Source: a virus
Strand: one strand, 5' to 3'
IMG/VR virus record: IMGVR_UViG_3300000256_000005
Span: 19,783 to 50,571 of that record
Length of the DNA: 30,789 nucleotides
Shown here: positions 11,345-30,789 of the stretch, piece by piece
Layout: each line of letters begins with the position of its first letter
Position numbering within the stretch: the stretch's first letter is position 1
Made by a program: the position numbers and the translations under genes
The notes under the pieces: model-generated
Databases searched by the model: none
The model's input: only the letters and a program-made list of their open reading frames with translations
What the model was told of the DNA's origin: nothing

Positions 11345-12456
11345 TATTCATATACTCTATTATGTGTGTCAGCACAACGAATAAATGTTGTGCATTTTGA
11401 TAAATCTTTTAAGCGACGAGCACCAACGTAAGTGCAAGCACTACGTATACCACCAAGCAAGTCCATAATAGTTTCTTCCACTGGTCCGCGGTAAGGTATA
11501 AGAACTTCTCGCCCTTCACTGCTGCGATACTCCTTTAATCCACCGCTATGTTTGTCATTTGCGGCTTTTGAGCTCATTCCATAAAACTGTACAAAATGTT
11601 TTTCTTGAATAATAGGCTTATAGTAATCCTTTGTTGGTATGTCTCCACCAAAGCCATCATCATGCATATGCTGGACTTCGTTACTTTGGTAATATCGTGT
11701 AATAACATCACCGCCGCCTTCATCGTGTCCTGCTAACATTCCACCAAGCATTACAAAATCAGCGCCGCCGGCAAAAGCCTTTGCAACGTCTCCAGGACTA
11801 GTGCAGCCACCATCAGCAATAATATGTCCACCTAAGCCATGAGCAGCATCAGCGCATTCAATAACTGCCGAAAGTTGAGGATAACCAACACCTGTTTTAA
11901 TGCGAGTAGTGCAAACACTACCAGGGCCGATACCAACTTTAACAACATCTGCCCCTTTTAAAATTAACTCTTCTGTAACATCGCCTGTTACAACATTGCC
12001 AGCAATAATAGTTTTGTTAGGAAATTCGTCTCTAAAGTTTCCAACAAAATTTAAAAATCTTTCGCTATATCCATTAGCAACATCAATACATACGTACTTA
12101 ATGTGAGACCCAACGTTTACTGCACGAAATTTAGCTAAATCATTATCTGTGATTCCCATACTATATGCAGCATGCCAACTGGGTGCCTCATTAAAATGTT
12201 CAACTAGTGTAGCTATATTAAAGTGTTTAGTTAGAGCCGTTAGCATGCCATGTGTTGAAAGTACACCATTCATTTCACGAGTGCCAACACCGTCCATGTT
12301 AGCGGCAATGATTGGAATACCAGTGTATTCAGCACCGCTATTCCTAAAATGGTATGTTCTTAAAAGGTCTACGTTTTTTCTACTACCCAAAGTGCTTCTC
12401 TTTGGCCGTAATAGTACATTAGAATAATCTAATTTTAATTGATTTTCTATTCTCAT
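11344..12456 (-). CDS. guaC: GMP reductase, 370 aa
   Basis: Converts GMP to IMP and ammonia with NADPH, letting guanine nucleotides re-enter the purine pool; cytoplasmic (beta/alpha)8 barrel. The active-site loop [20 protein letters not shown] (about 176-194) has catalytic Cys182; [10 protein letters not shown] and [14 protein letters not shown] with [15 protein letters not shown] follow as in E. coli GuaC. The Thr-Arg after the Cys and [12 protein letters not shown] favour GuaC over IMP dehydrogenase, and no CBS domains are present. About 20 residues longer than typical. The promoter at 12466-12494 makes it an early gene, in keeping with nucleotide remodelling for phage DNA synthesis. Confidence 0.88.
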
Positions 12457-12495: not shown

Positions 12496-12801
12496 TTATT
12501 CTTGTTCTAATTTAACCTCTAGAGGAAAACCATTATGTCTTGCACTTACTAGAACTTCTACACCTTTTTGTTCTGCAAGTTCAAATGGAAGCACTGCAAC
12601 AATACCAGCACCTTGATCACTAATCTCTATACTTTTCTTTTGTGCTTTGCCTGGATCGTAATCAAAGACTCTAACTAAACTTTCACTCACAAATTCAAAT
12701 GTAGTTACCTCATCATTTACATAGATAACTTTATAATCCTTGGGCGGCTCAATATCTAGTATGGGACGAATTCTCTCTTTTGTGTCAGTTTGCTCAGACA
12801 T
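12496..12801 (-). CDS. clpS: ClpS-like adaptor of the ClpAP protease, 101 aa
   Basis: Host ClpS binds the ClpA N-domain, delivers N-degron substrates and blocks degradation of SsrA-tagged proteins. From PPKDYKVIYVNDE to the end the sequence aligns without gaps by eye to E. coli ClpS (VNDD-T-MEFV, A-ETK, HPL). Differences at pocket positions: the second Asp is Glu31, the gate Met is Phe35, and the His that contacts the N-terminal amine is Ser61. The AEQK region that faces ClpA looks kept. GGAG lies upstream of the ATG. Suggests a modified adaptor or ClpA-blocking protein. Confidence 0.82.
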   Translation of the reverse strand: MSEQTDTKERIRPILDIEPPKDYKVIYVNDEVTTFEFVSESLVRVFDYDPGKAQKKSIEISDQGAGIVAVLPFELAEQKGVEVLVSARHNGFPLEVKLEQE

Positions 12802-20674: not shown

Positions 20675-20682
20675 TATTTATA
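20675..20682 (-). promoter_or_regulatory. T4-type late promoter TATAAATA for the lipoprotein gene
   Basis: Exact TATAAATA, about 26 bp upstream of the ATG at 20649, overlapping the -10 of the early promoter by three bases. AAGGAAAC serves as ribosome site. Confidence 0.7.
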
Positions 20683-24989: not shown

Positions 24990-25871
24990 TTATTTTGTTT
25001 TATTTTTCTCAAACATCTTGATATCTCCAACTGCCTTGTTGGCAATCTTTAACGCATCACTGAAGCTAACATCGATAACTTCCAACGCCTTTGCTTTGAA
25101 ATTGTTACTGAAGTGTTTTTGACTTCTGGCTTTCTTAAACCATTTACGCATATTCTGTAGGTCAGCATCACTCTTTGGATTAGTTACAATAAACCACACA
25201 TCATAGAATGTTTTAATAGCGAAATTTGGAGCAACTTCTGCCATAGTTTTTGTTCCTGGAAACGACTCCAAGCTGGCAGTATCACCGGTATTGATAACAC
25301 ATGTCACTTTGTCAAGATTAACAGCCGCCCATTTACTGTAATGGATGATATAATCAATATCATTACCTAACAATGTTTTGGCTACTCCTTTTGAATTACC
25401 AACATTGATCACGGTCCGTTTAGCAGTTGTTTTGAACTCATTCATTAGTGCGTTAGCGAATGATTCCCACATATTTGGAACGGCAATTGATCTGTCTTTG
25501 TTACCGTACATCAGATCATCAAGACCTAGACCTGCCTTGTCACTTCTGTAGCAAATGGATGTGCTAGATTTAGCAACAGCATCAACTAGATTGGCTTTGG
25601 TAATTTCAACACCACACCCTGGAATACTATGATAAGCATTGTTAACCCAATACATGTCATTAGTAGGACCACTCTCATGTCTTGCTTTTCCTTTTCGGCA
25701 ATCACCCAAAAATTGAATGTTGTTTGTATACCCGTGTTGTTTAAGTGTTGGTTGGACGGCGGCGAATGTGTAGTTTCCTGCCCCACCTGGTCTTGATCCA
25801 ACCACCAATTCTGCTGCGTAAGCAGATGTAGTCGCGGTGATCAATGCCAGTGCTAGTATAATCTTTTTCAT
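24990..25871 (-). CDS. tctC: TctC-like periplasmic solute-binding protein, 293 aa
   Basis: Signal peptide MKKIILALALITATTSAYAA then LVVGSRPGGAGNYTFAAVQP, the ligand-loop start of the Bug/TctC family. The middle keeps the TctC layout: two alpha/beta lobes with VPNMWESFANALMNEFK and INVGNSKGVAKTLLGNDIDY. In the host it would bind a carboxylate in the periplasm for a tripartite tricarboxylate transporter. Own promoter with an inverted repeat (25912-25944) and own terminator. Ligand not deducible. Confidence 0.82.
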   Translation of the reverse strand: MKKIILALALITATTSAYAAELVVGSRPGGAGNYTFAAVQPTLKQHGYTNNIQFLGDCRKGKARHESGPTNDMYWVNNAYHSIPGCGVEITKANLVDAVAKSSTSICYRSDKAGLGLDDLMYGNKDRSIAVPNMWESFANALMNEFKTTAKRTVINVGNSKGVAKTLLGNDIDYIIHYSKWAAVNLDKVTCVINTGDTASLESFPGTKTMAEVAPNFAIKTFYDVWFIVTNPKSDADLQNMRKWFKKARSQKHFSNNFKAKALEVIDVSFSDALKIANKAVGDIKMFEKNKTK

Positions 25872-25911
25872 AATTGTTAATCTCCTATTTGTATATGAAA
25901 TTTATAGATGT

Positions 25912-25944
25912 TACCATTATATAACAATGGTATCATTATGTCAA
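25912..25944 (-). promoter_or_regulatory. consensus promoter with overlapping operator-like inverted repeat, for tctC
   Basis: TTGACA at 25939-25944, 17-bp spacer, TATAAT at 25916-25921. An exact inverted repeat TACCATT-N7-AATGGTA (25912-25932) covers the -10 and part of the spacer, as a repressor site would. The gap 25872-26075 holds nothing else clear except a GATAAATA at 26066-26073. Confidence 0.7.
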
Positions 25945-26075
25945 TATTTTTTGCTAATGTTTTGAACATATACAGGTCGGCGTTAAGATCATACAACTCT
26001 AAAAAGGGTCAAGCCCTGCGTCGATTTGGTATACCTGGCATCACTGGACTGTGACGCTGCAAAAGTATTTATCAT

Positions 26076-27437
26076 TTAGAGGTAAATCTGTAAGAAATGT
26101 GTCAACACTTCTTGGAAATGAATTGACAACATAAATCCAAATATCAATGGGATACAGTCAAGTTTGCGTATAAACCACGCTACAGGTAACAGAAATCCAC
26201 TGAGTAAGAGATAATACCATAACTGGTATTCTTCCATGCCCATGTTGATGATAGTTGCTCCTAACATCACAAGAGCAACCCAGAATATTTTGTTATTGTG
26301 TTTATAGACGAAATCATTGATTAATGTTGCCAACGGCCATGCTGAAACTAATCCAATGACATTGGCGATTATGAATGACATAACTAACGCATACGTGATA
26401 TTAATGTTATTGAACCATTCCAATCCAAACTGCGCCCCGCTATTCACAGCCATATCATACACCAATATCTCACTGGCACTGATGGGAATTCCAAATGCGA
26501 GTAATGGAATCAAAAAACTCAACGATGCTGAGTTGTTTGCTGCTTCTGCTGCGGATAAACAAGAAGCATCGCCCTTCTTATATACCTTCCGTTTGATCCA
26601 TTTTTCATATGAATACGCCAGTTGTGAACTGATAGTAAACGTGAGACTTGGGATAAATCCTGCGAAGAAACCAATACAGCTTCCCCTGATAGCAGAAATC
26701 CATTTGAATTCAGTGATGCTGAATTTGCCACTGTCTTGTTTTGCTACGATCATTTCGCCATCGTCGTTGAATTTATTACCGAACAATGTTGGCAACGCAT
26801 ACAGAAAAATGAATGCTACTGTGGTTGGAATGCCAGCCATAAAATATACATTCGTGACATCAAACATTTCAGTAAACCATGTAGTATTGTGTATTTGGGT
26901 GATACCAGCAGTACCAAGTAGATATCCTGTACCCATAAGACAACAGTTCACGATGAATTTATTGCTTGATGTTATAACTGATATTACAATACACCCTCCA
27001 AGTAACAGAAGTTGTAGTGTCAGTGCGTAAAACACATGTAGATATGAAATGTATGTGATGGTAGTGATGATGGCGATCACAGCCACAACGCTTCCTACTG
27101 CGCTGGATATAGCAGATGTTCTAAGTGCTTCGGTAAGTCTGCCTTGAATGTTCATAGCGTATCCCTCTTTGACTGCGGGGATGCTACTTGCTTCGCCAGG
27201 AATACCAACAGTGGATGCTATAACAGAACCCATGTATTGACTTGTGATCAGAATTCCGATGTAAAACGCTATCAAGCTGTAAACATCTATTGATGATAGC
27301 AACGGATAAAACATCAGAATGGATATTGATATATTGACACTTGGATTCAATCCAGCTAAAATACCAGCCAGTGATCCACATAAAACAAAAATCAATACAG
27401 ATATCATATTGACATCCATTGCCATTGTTTCAAGCAT
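26076..27437 (-). CDS. tctA: TctA family membrane transporter subunit, 453 aa
   Basis: Large transmembrane component of tripartite tricarboxylate transporters. About 11-12 hydrophobic helices. The first conserved loop is GIPGEASSIPAVKEGYAMNIQGR (about 78-100); the second is AAEAANNSASLSFLIPLLAFGIP (about 297-319), with the AANN typical of TctA. RBS AGGAG precedes the ATG and the stop of the PP-loop gene is adjacent (TAAATG). No TctB gene is present in the window, so the transporter would need a host TctB or is divergent. Confidence 0.85.
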   Translation of the reverse strand: MLETMAMDVNMISVLIFVLCGSLAGILAGLNPSVNISISILMFYPLLSSIDVYSLIAFYIGILITSQYMGSVIASTVGIPGEASSIPAVKEGYAMNIQGRLTEALRTSAISSAVGSVVAVIAIITTITYISYLHVFYALTLQLLLLGGCIVISVITSSNKFIVNCCLMGTGYLLGTAGITQIHNTTWFTEMFDVTNVYFMAGIPTTVAFIFLYALPTLFGNKFNDDGEMIVAKQDSGKFSITEFKWISAIRGSCIGFFAGFIPSLTFTISSQLAYSYEKWIKRKVYKKGDASCLSAAEAANNSASLSFLIPLLAFGIPISASEILVYDMAVNSGAQFGLEWFNNINITYALVMSFIIANVIGLVSAWPLATLINDFVYKHNNKIFWVALVMLGATIINMGMEEYQLWYYLLLSGFLLPVAWFIRKLDCIPLIFGFMLSIHFQEVLTHFLQIYL

Positions 27438-28589
27438 TTATTCTCCTAACACGTAATCCTGTGACCATATATCTACAAACCCAGATGTGATAAAGTCTGA
27501 CTCATCCTTCTTGTAGCAATCATCAATGATTTCTTCAACGTGATTTATACCTGCTTTCCAAGCATCCTGATGTTTCTTTTCTGCGTGAAGAAAAAACCCA
27601 TCATCTTTATCCCACGCATTGACAAGCTTTGCTTTGCCAAGGGTGAAATATGGACGATCATCGCCGACGTTTTGATTAACATAGCGTCCATAAAGTAATG
27701 GGTCAATGTAGTTATGGTAGAATTCTCTGTTGAAATACTTCTTTTCACGACTGAATAATTGCTTCATTAAGGTAGCTTTCTCTGGGGTATCTTCCAGAGC
27801 ATCGAAGAAATTCTTGATCGTGTATGCCTGCTTACATATCAGCTTTGGCATATCGCCACTCCAATAGAAATAATCATTATCGTACCAACTGCCTTCCTTT
27901 GCTACATCATTAGAGTTGAAGAACCCAGGGCAACTGTCAAGAAAGCTTATTTTCCATTTGTGATCTTCGTAAAATATACGAGGTTTGTCAACACCACGAA
28001 CAATACATGTTCTGCCCATCTCCATTTGTGCTTGGTACTGAAAATCGGTCTGGTGGAAATTCCACATGAATGTTTGAGGACTTAAACTGAAGTTGCTCGT
28101 AGAGTACACCCATTCCTCATCGATGAATTTGTCATAGTGCTTACTATCATCAAGGAAGAAATAGTTCAAATCGATGTTTCTATCATGTTCAAGCTGCCTG
28201 ATGTATGGCAGGGCGACATTATGTGCTTCTTTGTTTTGTGTCAATTCTCCCCAGTTGTCGAATTGAAAACTACCATATGTTCCAACGCCTTCAATGGGAA
28301 TATCGTTATCGACAAATGTTCTCAACATAGTAGTGCTATCGATCCCGCCACTATACATCAATATTACTCTGTCGTATTGATTGCGTATCTGGATAGCTCG
28401 TTGAAGATAAATTTCATATAAGTCTTCGGCTGGTTCTTCAAGCCACTGATGTGCTGAGAACTGCTGGTCTTGGAAAATCCACTTCGGTAACTCACCGCCA
28501 GAGCACGCCTTCAACGCTGAGACTTTGTTATAGAACTTTAATCCATTAACAGAGTAATGCCCCAGTTCTTTCTGTCCTGTTATCAACAT
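27438..28589 (-). CDS. PP-loop ATP pyrophosphatase, asparagine-synthetase-like, copy 2, 383 aa
   Basis: The PP-loop S80-G-G-I-D-S-T86 (VILMYSGGIDSTTML) marks an adenine nucleotide alpha-hydrolase that adenylates a substrate. The size and layout fit the synthetase half of AsnB, but there is no N-terminal Cys glutaminase domain, so ammonia or another nucleophile would be used. It matches copy 1 along its length: N-terminal LGHY/GYY, W-FQD-QF, EDLYE-Y-QRA; later IRGVDKPR, SGD-PK-ICKQ, NAW-KDD-FF-HA. Conserved throughout, so both copies look functional. Substrate unknown. Confidence 0.8.
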   Translation of the reverse strand: MLITGQKELGHYSVNGLKFYNKVSALKACSGGELPKWIFQDQQFSAHQWLEEPAEDLYEIYLQRAIQIRNQYDRVILMYSGGIDSTTMLRTFVDNDIPIEGVGTYGSFQFDNWGELTQNKEAHNVALPYIRQLEHDRNIDLNYFFLDDSKHYDKFIDEEWVYSTSNFSLSPQTFMWNFHQTDFQYQAQMEMGRTCIVRGVDKPRIFYEDHKWKISFLDSCPGFFNSNDVAKEGSWYDNDYFYWSGDMPKLICKQAYTIKNFFDALEDTPEKATLMKQLFSREKKYFNREFYHNYIDPLLYGRYVNQNVGDDRPYFTLGKAKLVNAWDKDDGFFLHAEKKHQDAWKAGINHVEEIIDDCYKKDESDFITSGFVDIWSQDYVLGE

Positions 28590-28590
28590 A

Positions 28591-29751
28591 TTATGATCCT
28601 AGATTGTAATCTCTCGACCATATTCCACGCAATCCAGTTTTGATGAATGATTGAAGTGTAGGCTCTGCGGAATTGAAGAAAGATGTGTCGATTGTATTTA
28701 TAGCATGGTCAATACCAGCGTTCCAAACATCTCTCGCTGACTTCGAAGCATGTTCAAAGAACACATCGTCTTTATGCCACGCATTTACGAGTGGTGTTTT
28801 GCCTAACGAGAAATAGTTTCGATCATCGCCTGGTTTATTTGTCAGATATCGTTCATAAATTATCGGATCAATCCATTTGAAATATTCAGAACTGACGAAT
28901 TTATCACTCTCCCTAGAGAATAATGTGTTCACGATATCTGGACGATTGATCTTTTGAAAATATTGTTTGATCATGTGTCCTTGCTTACAAATAACTTTTG
29001 GATTATCGCCACTCCAGTAAAAATACTCATAGTACAACGAGTTCGGATCATCTGTTGAACACTCAGAACCAAATAGGCCGTTCGCGTTGCTATCCAAGAA
29101 ACTTACTTTCCATGTTCCGTCCTCGCATAACACTCTTGGCTTGTCAACACCACGAATAACAGCAGTGGTGCCAGCCATCAGGTGTTGTTGGAAATACGGA
29201 TCTTGTCTGTGCTTAGTCCATATGAATGTCTCCGGACTGACAGATGCTGAATTGGTATTAAGAATCCATGACTCATCCTTAAACGATTGCTCAAACAGAT
29301 ACCAATCATCCAGTAAATGGTACGGCAATTTAATGCCTCTAGTTTTTTCTAGATGGTGAATATATGGCTGTGCTACTCTGAATATTTCTTGATTGCGATT
29401 GTAAGATTCGTATGATTTAATATCGAAAGCACCATAACTGACGATTCCATCGAGCGGGATGTTGTTATCGATGAATGAATGTAAAACGCAAGTGCTATCG
29501 ATCCCACCCGAATAGTATAGAATAAGTCTATCGTACTTCAGGCGCAAGGACATAGCACGTTGACGATATAGCTCATACAAATCTTCTTTTGGTTCATTTT
29601 CCCAGTTGATTGAAGCAAATTGTTTATCTTGGAAAACCCATTTGATTTGAGATATATCATTACATGACTGTAGTGCTTGAATTTTGTTTTCAAAACGCAA
29701 CCCTGGCTTATCAGTGATTTCGTAATATCCAAGATCGTTGGCTATGCTCAT
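28591..29751 (-). CDS. PP-loop ATP pyrophosphatase, asparagine-synthetase-like, copy 1, 386 aa
   Basis: PP-loop S81-G-G-I-D-S-T87 (LILYYSGGIDSTCVL) followed by a helix and YGAFDIKSYESYN. Same organisation as copy 2, one base apart; the pair arose by tandem duplication and has diverged considerably. Absence of a glutaminase domain distinguishes them from AsnB. QueC- or TilS-like roles are possible by fold, but length and the C-terminal domain favour an asparagine-synthetase-like amidation or ligation. First gene of the cassette, under the promoter at 29770-29798. Confidence 0.8.
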   Translation of the reverse strand: MSIANDLGYYEITDKPGLRFENKIQALQSCNDISQIKWVFQDKQFASINWENEPKEDLYELYRQRAMSLRLKYDRLILYYSGGIDSTCVLHSFIDNNIPLDGIVSYGAFDIKSYESYNRNQEIFRVAQPYIHHLEKTRGIKLPYHLLDDWYLFEQSFKDESWILNTNSASVSPETFIWTKHRQDPYFQQHLMAGTTAVIRGVDKPRVLCEDGTWKVSFLDSNANGLFGSECSTDDPNSLYYEYFYWSGDNPKVICKQGHMIKQYFQKINRPDIVNTLFSRESDKFVSSEYFKWIDPIIYERYLTNKPGDDRNYFSLGKTPLVNAWHKDDVFFEHASKSARDVWNAGIDHAINTIDTSFFNSAEPTLQSFIKTGLRGIWSRDYNLGS

Positions 29752-29804: not shown

Positions 29805-29879
29805 TGGAGCGGGTACCGGAACTCGAATCCGGTTATCTGACTTGGCAAGCCAGTACATTACCAGTTATGCTTTACCCGC
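29805..29879 (-). tRNA. tRNA-Gly (GCC anticodon)
   Basis: Acceptor GCGGGTA/TACCCGC, discriminator T, encoded CCA; D stem GCAT/ATGT; anticodon stem CTGGC/GTCAG with loop TTGCCAA (GCC); T arm CCGGA-TTCGAGT-TCCGG. It folds well. Its 5' part overlaps the end of the protein gene 29858-30097 by 22 bp, and the TctA/PP-loop cassette starts just downstream. Confidence 0.93.
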
Positions 29880-30098: not shown

Positions 30099-30422
30099 TT
30101 ATAAATCCTCTAAATCATGTATTGACTCTTTTGCTTCTTCAACATCTCTTAAACTGTCAATGTATTCTTTTAACAATTCAGCTGTAGTTTTTTGTTTTTG
30201 ACAATAGCTTTGACCCTTAATTACATTTGTTGTTTTACATTCTTTATCTTTTATCACTGATACTATTTCGTCTGTACTAGTTTTTTTGTCATTCAGCATC
30301 CTAGCACCATCATACACAGTTTTTCCTGTACTTAATAGTTGTATAGGAAATGGCAATCCAGCACATGCTGTTACCATTATAGTTACAACTGACACTAAAA
30401 TTATACTTAACCACTTTACCAT
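30099..30422 (-). CDS. small lipoprotein, 107 aa
   Basis: Signal peptide MVKWLSIILVSVVTIMVTAC with lipobox VTAC (Cys20). Then a STGKTVYDGARMLNDKKTSTDEIVSVIKDKEC and QSYCQKQ pattern, two Cys likely paired, and an acidic helical tail. It resembles a small lipoprotein found in many T4-like marine phages (recalled). Could be an outer-membrane spanin-type component, but no inner-membrane partner is identified. Two bases separate it from the next gene. Confidence 0.75.
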   Translation of the reverse strand: MVKWLSIILVSVVTIMVTACAGLPFPIQLLSTGKTVYDGARMLNDKKTSTDEIVSVIKDKECKTTNVIKGQSYCQKQKTTAELLKEYIDSLRDVEEAKESIHDLEDL

Positions 30423-30443
30423 CTAATACTTATTAAAGTTAAA

Positions 30444-30708
30444 GTGCAACTTTTCTGTTGCTAGGGAAGTTGCCACCCCCGAGAAATTAAGCTGCGAGAG
30501 CGTAATCCTCATATGCTACATTATCGTTAGCATTTATAGTTTTTGTTCGCGTTAACCGAGCTTACATCCGGACAACTCCACATTCCTACTACTTGCCAGT
30601 CGATCCTGTTCATCCCCATCATAAGCACACTCCGTAAAATGTGTTTATGGTGGAGATGCCGGGAATCGCACCCCGGGTCCTGTGCAACTTTTGTTATGCT
30701 TCAACGTT
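30444..30708 (-). ncRNA. ssrA: circularly permuted two-piece tmRNA (alphaproteobacterial type)
   Basis: Transcribed from about 30708 downward: first the acceptor piece, with a T arm (CCGGG...CCCGG) and 3' end CATCTCC-A-CCA at 30648; then a 30-nt intervening segment; then the coding piece starting at 30617 with GGGGATG, which pairs with CATCTCC (one G-T), followed by GGATCGAC, close to the tmRNA D-loop signature GGATTCGAC. The tag frame at 30531-30487 reads ANDNVAYEDYALAA-stop, and a hairpin (GCAACTT/AAGTTGC) closes the 3' end. In Caulobacter-type tmRNA the two pieces are cut apart and pair. It rescues stalled ribosomes and tags the nascent chain for ClpXP/ClpAP. The T loop counts as 8 nt, one more than usual. 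Outer ends are approximate. Confidence 0.9.
30487..30531 (-). other. tmRNA proteolysis-tag reading frame
   Basis: GCT AAC GAT AAT ... GCA GCT TAA encodes ANDNVAYEDYALAA: the AND start and ALAA end typical of SsrA tags (E. coli ANDENYALAA). Ends in a single TAA. The resume codon is taken as GCT at 30531. Confidence 0.88.
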
Positions 30709-30714
30709 ACGTAC

Positions 30715-30722
30715 TATTTATA
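30715..30722 (-). promoter_or_regulatory. T4-type late promoter TATAAATA in front of the tmRNA
   Basis: Exact TATAAATA, placed so that transcription would begin about where the acceptor piece starts (about 30708). Suggests phage late transcription of the tmRNA. Beyond it (30723-30789) only an ATTCAC...GTGAAT inverted repeat is seen. Confidence 0.7.
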
Positions 30723-30789
30723 TTATATTTCTCCTGCAACCCATTTATTCACTGCAAGATTTACGGTGAATACTGTGGCTATTCACTGC

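Follow-up and report, generated by a model that had tools for sequence, protein, structure and literature searches.

Does the phage DNA at the end of this virus record encode a functional tmRNA, and when during infection would such an RNA be transcribed? The window analyzed here, a stretch of 30,789 nucleotides, is the terminal part of a virus record of 50,571 bases. A preliminary description had recognized in it a permuted two-piece tmRNA under a T4-type late promoter, and had concluded that expression was late and that the phage supplied its own ribosome rescue. The tmRNA itself was confirmed. A complete permuted two-piece gene was identified on the minus strand (30710..30487, with the 3' pseudoknot reaching approximately 30443) by ARAGORN and by two Rfam models, whose curated cut-offs (47 bits for RF04321 and 50 bits for RF01849) were taken as the criterion of membership for permuted tmRNAs and were both exceeded. 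RF04321 (tmRNA_permuted) matched at 30710..30487 (minus strand) with 119.1 bits, and the covariance search with RF01849 (alpha_tmRNA) that had been proposed as a check gave a match at 30761..30443 (minus strand) with 100.8 bits. ARAGORN called a permuted tmRNA at 30396..30744 on the minus strand, with the tag ANDNVAYEDYALAA followed by a stop. The features of the locus are as follows:

29805..29879, minus strand: tRNA-Gly(GCC), about 0.6 kb 3' of the tmRNA (ARAGORN and Rfam)
30099..30422, minus strand: small lipoprotein-like ORF immediately 3' of the tmRNA (contiguous phage context in three assemblies)
30443..30617, minus strand: coding piece, with the GGGGATG 5' strand of the acceptor stem, the D-loop-like GGATCGAC, the tag frame and the 3' pseudoknot (RF04321 and RF01849)
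30446..30480 (ends approximate), minus strand: 3' H-type pseudoknot, with stem 1 GGG/CCC, stem 2 GCAACTT/AAGTTGC and the conserved GCAACAGAA in between
30487..30531, minus strand: tag reading frame GCT...GCT TAA, encoding ANDNVAYEDYALAA and the stop (ARAGORN and sequence)
30618..30647, minus strand: intervening segment of 30 nt between CCA and GGGGATG, whose predicted removal would leave two pieces
30648..30710, minus strand: acceptor piece, with the 5' strand of P2, the T arm, the acceptor-stem 3' strand CATCTCC and ACCA (RF04321 start at 30710, CCA end at 30648)
30659..30676, minus strand: T arm CCGGG-GTGCGATT-CCCGG, with a loop of 8 nt (one additional G)
30715..30722, minus strand: TATAAATA octamer, T4-type late promoter box by exact match, predicted start at about 30709

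The acceptor piece lies 5' of the coding piece; its encoded CCA ends at 30648, and the coding piece begins at 30617 with GGGGATGAACAGGATCGAC. The acceptor stem, in which GGGGATG pairs with CATCTCC, has 7 bp and includes G3.U70, the pair read by AlaRS. The tag region consists of an alanine resume codon GCT, an open frame ending in ALAA and the stop codon TAA. The stem pairing, the encoded CCA, the D-loop-like sequence and the tag had all been pointed out before and are all present; the strand, which had been left out, is the minus strand. The intervening segment is highly variable in both length and sequence among relatives. In two-strand co-folding, which was not counted as evidence, the acceptor stem and the T stem reappeared but P2 could not be predicted dependably. 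Judged from its sequence, the gene is complete and probably functional, and corresponds to an alphaproteobacterial-type two-piece ssrA encoded by a phage.

Relatives were collected with two IMG/VR pattern scans and ARAGORN, which gave at least 108 distinct permuted tmRNAs, nearly all from viral contigs and a few from phage records. Among the matches listed, the acceptor stem was fully paired in all parsed relatives and G3.U70 was kept, with four pair types (A-U, G-C, C-G, and U-A) at position 5 of the stem. Stem 2 of the pseudoknot was compensated, with 59 distinct helices in 85 relatives among the matches listed and a mean pairing score of 7.1 in these relatives versus 4.7 after shuffling. 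Some viral permuted tmRNAs have unusually long tags of 21-24 aa according to ARAGORN (L036, L113, L074, and L040), and other tags called by the same program begin with Gly or Asp, not Ala (e.g., GEGNFALAA and DNHIDYRMAA).

The T arm of the window copy is peculiar. The usual 5-bp T stem is intact, but the loop (GTGCGATT) has 8 nt, a length found solely in this copy, every other parsed viral tmRNA among the matches listed having 7 nt. A 7-nt T-loop is usual for permuted tmRNAs without being strictly defining, and both covariance models treat the additional base as an insertion. One might suppose that this base impairs charging or the binding of SmpB/EF-Tu, the RNA of such a decaying or altered copy being either inactive or a competitor of the host tmRNA; indeed, the tmRNA of phage DS6A, which has only the tRNA-like domain, is reported to inhibit tmRNA upon expression in E. 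coli (PMC11915505). However, the tag frame, the acceptor stem, the CCA and the pseudoknot are all intact, and the sequence, 8-nt loop included, is identical in three assemblies, and we consider decay of this copy very improbable. The 8-nt loop provides a natural test of the change that the tRNA-like domain tolerates.

A different objection concerns the origin of the gene, which sits at the contig end; since tmRNA genes often serve as integration sites (PMC9004378), it might be a fragment of a host ssrA, acquired through an integrating element or created by misassembly. Neither of the two outcomes that the preliminary description named as speaking against it was observed: the alpha_tmRNA covariance match exists, and a host ssrA with host flanks is not what we found. 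The gene is complete, and L006 and L007, IMG/VR contigs belonging to two further metagenome assemblies, share the exact DNA of the window over the common stretch and extend beyond its end, where a tRNA-Arg(TCT) and then phage genes follow. These two contigs led us to reject a misassembly. The position of the tmRNA between nrdAB and a nuclease/endolysin block is kept in related phages, and two pattern scans of genome contigs gave no match, the acceptor-plus-coding pattern being found in no bacterial genome. A host fragment is hardly credible in the face of these results. The sequence GCAGTGAATA is present twice in 30740-30789, once at the very end of the contig and once about 35 nt inward, and this repeat, together with the tRNA-Arg segment beyond, may account for the assembly stopping there.

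Cultured close relatives were found neither by megablast nor by tblastn with three proteins, only short tmRNA patches being matched. Related contigs have in common a gene block composed of nrdA-nrdB (named by strong match to the annotated genes of Mosig and Melnitz), the tmRNA, a nuclease, a cell-wall hydrolase, a 597-aa protein, Hsp20, ClpS, and an IMPDH/GMP-reductase gene. One relative with the same block, G006 (306 kb), encodes homologues of the gp23-type capsid protein and of the gp55-type late sigma factor; neither gp55 nor gp23 homologues were detected in the window's own 50-kb record, which is a fragment. Kinship with these relatives, G006 included, places the window phage among the large T4-like phages. 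No SmpB was detected in 20 phage records, including the complete Melnitz genome, and the window's own 50-kb fragment is likewise without it, so the phage tmRNA presumably uses host SmpB, and the statement that the phage supplies its own ribosome rescue was therefore too strong.

Several other genes deserve mention. The ClpS adaptor encoded at 12496-12801 (minus strand; Pfam 2.8e-19) is conserved along with Hsp20 and the tmRNA in G006, G007, and G010. It has kept the ND motif and has Ser in place of the substrate-binding His of ClpS structures; because of this replacement, it may act as a modulator of ClpA instead of handing over N-degron substrates, and a link with tmRNA-tagged proteins is possible. 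A TctA-like tricarboxylate transporter subunit (24990-27437, minus strand; Pfam 3.7e-59) adjoins a possible TctC-like protein that has no Pfam match; these are apparently phage-carried transport genes, and the TctA-like region had no match in the contig of the closest relative among the matches listed. A tandem pair of paralogous ORFs with about 45% identity (27438-29751, minus strand) looks ATP-pyrophosphatase-like by eye (SGGIDS motif); the two gave no Pfam or PHROG match and are absent from the relatives compared. Finally, phage Fe-S cluster assembly proteins, an A-type carrier and a NifU/IscU-like protein, are encoded at L003:3902-4252 (minus strand) and L003:10612-11016 (plus strand).

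We then turn to transcription. The exact TATAAATA reported at the expected start of the gene is indeed there (30722..30715). Following the T4 rule, which places the late box at -13 to -6 relative to the start, transcription is predicted to begin at about 30709, one base away from where the RF04321 match starts (30710). Significance by count alone was rejected, the octamer being present 9 times in the 50,571-base AT-rich record versus about 7 expected by chance. It is meaningful by its position, because the same placing recurs in other viruses: when we scanned the DNA preceding the acceptor piece in 69 independent viral tmRNAs (<80% identity) drawn from the matches listed, a sample biased by search patterns that fix CTCCACCA or a GCGA T-loop, 26 of them had the octamer between positions -71 and -78, counted from the CCA end. 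It was present anywhere in the scanned zone (NATAAATA) in 28 of these 69 tmRNAs among the matches listed, the shuffle mean being 1.2. The heptamer ATAAATA was also tested in the interval from 8 to 60 nt before each gene. In the window phage, taken together with the upstream part of G001, NATAAATA precedes 7 of 88 genes (0.7 expected), and the excess is larger in G006 (36 vs. 1.95 expected), G010 (20 vs. 1.16), and Melnitz (19 vs. 1.13). By this enrichment, NATAAATA is the mark of predicted late-type start sites across these phages. The locus has TATAAATA at the predicted start site, as expected of a T4-type late promoter, for which no -35 is required, and the core of the octamer is a genome-wide upstream motif of the phage. 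The late promoter proposed in the preliminary description is supported as one element of the control region, by this enrichment and by the gp55 and gp23 homologues of the relatives, but its restriction of expression to the late phase proved too narrow.

The additional element is a sigma70-type promoter, called when at least 5 of 6 positions matched TTGACA and a spacer of 16-18 nt preceded a -10. Such a TTGACA-N16-18-(-10) arrangement overlaps the octamer in 24 of the 28 octamer-bearing independent viral tmRNAs among the matches listed. In 14 of these 24, the octamer doubles as the -10; in the other 10, the -10 is offset from it by 3-11 nt, as in L018 (TTGACA-17-TATAATGGATG-TATAAATA), and this offset shows that octamer and -10 are separate elements. 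Neither the octamer nor the sigma70 pair was present in the scanned region of 30 of the 69 viral tmRNAs among the matches listed. As a control, we considered the 25 TATAAATA sites of Melnitz: apart from the one at the tmRNA, two have a clear, correctly spaced -35 by eye, and a lenient test admitted a third, whose -10 is poor. The two clear cases, at 12156 and 48685 (L151), are TTGACT-N17 promoters that overlap TATAAATA in the early/late layout seen at the tmRNA; the genes behind them are one located 3' of the helicase gene and the ssDNA-binding protein gene. In the window, a second dual-looking promoter (20675-20682, minus strand; TTGACT-N17-TATTATAAATA) precedes a lipoprotein-like gene and is conserved in the window phage and G007. 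Since most octamer-bearing tmRNAs also have an overlapping TTGACA-N17-(-10), transcription in both the early and the late phase is probable for the tmRNA gene of this phage family. We found no report of a conserved early/late promoter pair at a phage tmRNA in the open-access literature.

In the window phage, no proximal -35 was found for the octamer. Its closest relative among the matches listed, L023, has TAGACAAACCTAGTTAAATATAG-TATAAATA directly at the tmRNA, and the promoter of L023 is matched in L006 by TAGACAAACCTGGTTAATTTCTAA-TATAAT, located about 270 nt further upstream, before tRNA-Arg and past the same upstream gene end. The early-type promoter of the window phage would be this TAGACA-N18-TATAAT, about 270 nt upstream, before the tRNA-Arg seen only in the companion contigs. 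These two phages are most simply explained by insertion of a tRNA-Arg segment that moved the early element away from the late box.

A functional tmRNA whose transcription from TATAAATA is virtually confined to the late phase, as the preliminary description proposed, would agree with the exact octamer in the right place, with its core being a genome-wide upstream motif and with the missing proximal -35 of the window phage. We regard this as unlikely, however, given that, among the matches listed, the sigma70 promoter has been kept by 24 of the 28 independent viral tmRNAs with the octamer and that the window phage itself has TAGACA-N18-TATAAT upstream of the adjoining tRNA-Arg. Even less probable is the converse, that the functional tmRNA is read by the sigma70 holoenzyme only and that the octamer is merely a -10 element (TATAAA). 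The coincidence of both elements in 14 of 24 cases would be explained in this way, and the authors of Melnitz assigned an early promoter alone, but the offset in the other 10 cases, the genome-wide enrichment of NATAAATA and the retention of the octamer without a -35 in the window copy all argue against it.

We therefore favor, with a probability of roughly 0.7, a functional phage two-piece tmRNA that would be processed by the host, use host SmpB and be read both early and late. Gene anatomy, compensatory changes and promoter elements are directly visible; from them we infer the timing of transcription, processing, charging, use of host SmpB and benefit to the phage. Host tRNA-processing enzymes would cut a single transcript starting at about 30709-30710, the resulting pieces would pair, and host AlaRS would attach alanine to the acceptor stem with its G3.U70. 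The charged tmRNA would then be brought by host SmpB to stalled ribosomes, where the added tag ANDNVAYEDYALAA would mark the peptide for host proteases. Early transcription would depend on host RNA polymerase with sigma70 and late transcription on the T4-type TATAAATA box, these two phases maintaining the rescue capacity through infection. In the window phage, where insertion of the tRNA-Arg segment would have split the proximal early element from the late box, a tRNA-Arg/tmRNA transcript would be made early from TAGACA-N18-TATAAT about 270 nt upstream, and the proximal octamer would serve late. We see an even chance that T4-like phages repeatedly built a sigma70 and a gp55-type promoter before a captured two-piece tmRNA so that phage-made rescue runs throughout infection, the window lineage having split the two halves by tRNA insertion and adopted a non-canonical 8-nt T-loop.

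The role of tmRNA in lytic phages has been seen in one published view as early recycling of host proteins, and in the preliminary description as late rescue. The overlap of early and late elements, being conserved, suggests a need for the RNA from the beginning of infection to its end. The Melnitz ssDNA-binding protein gene appears to be controlled in the same way.

Two-piece tmRNAs of marine phages, the type to which the window gene belongs, were already published, with 53 in one survey, 50 of them marine or aquatic (PMC9004378), and a 2025 database contains 79 unique phage tmRNAs (PMC11915505). The ssrA of Methylophilales phage Melnitz (MZ577097) and of Pelagibacter phage Mosig (MT647606) are likewise permuted two-piece tmRNAs of the alphaproteobacterial type in T4-like marine phages (PMC9004378). 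Melnitz, at whose tmRNA only an early promoter was described (PMC9004378), has TTGACA-N17-TATAAATA before the gene, whereas the window copy has no proximal -35. Both ssrA carry a glutamine riboswitch (reported in PMC9004378 and seen here for Melnitz), whereas no riboswitch match was obtained at the window tmRNA; they are followed by a gp33-type gene, and the window copy differs from them in its 8-nt T-loop and in the tRNA-Arg upstream. The Rfam models RF01849 and RF04321 (PMC11915505) both cover the window tmRNA end to end. Compared with the bacterial consensus, it has a shorter 3' region after the tag and the additional T-loop base. The two-piece ssrA of Caulobacter was reportedly described by Keiler in 2000. 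That gene has the same order of acceptor piece, intervening segment and coding piece, with a tag of the AND...AA type, but differs in being a host chromosomal gene with SmpB in the same genome. The tmRNA genes of Bxz1-type mycobacteriophages are taken to be one-piece. They are also phage-encoded (PMC4131195), whereas the window form is permuted and made of two pieces.
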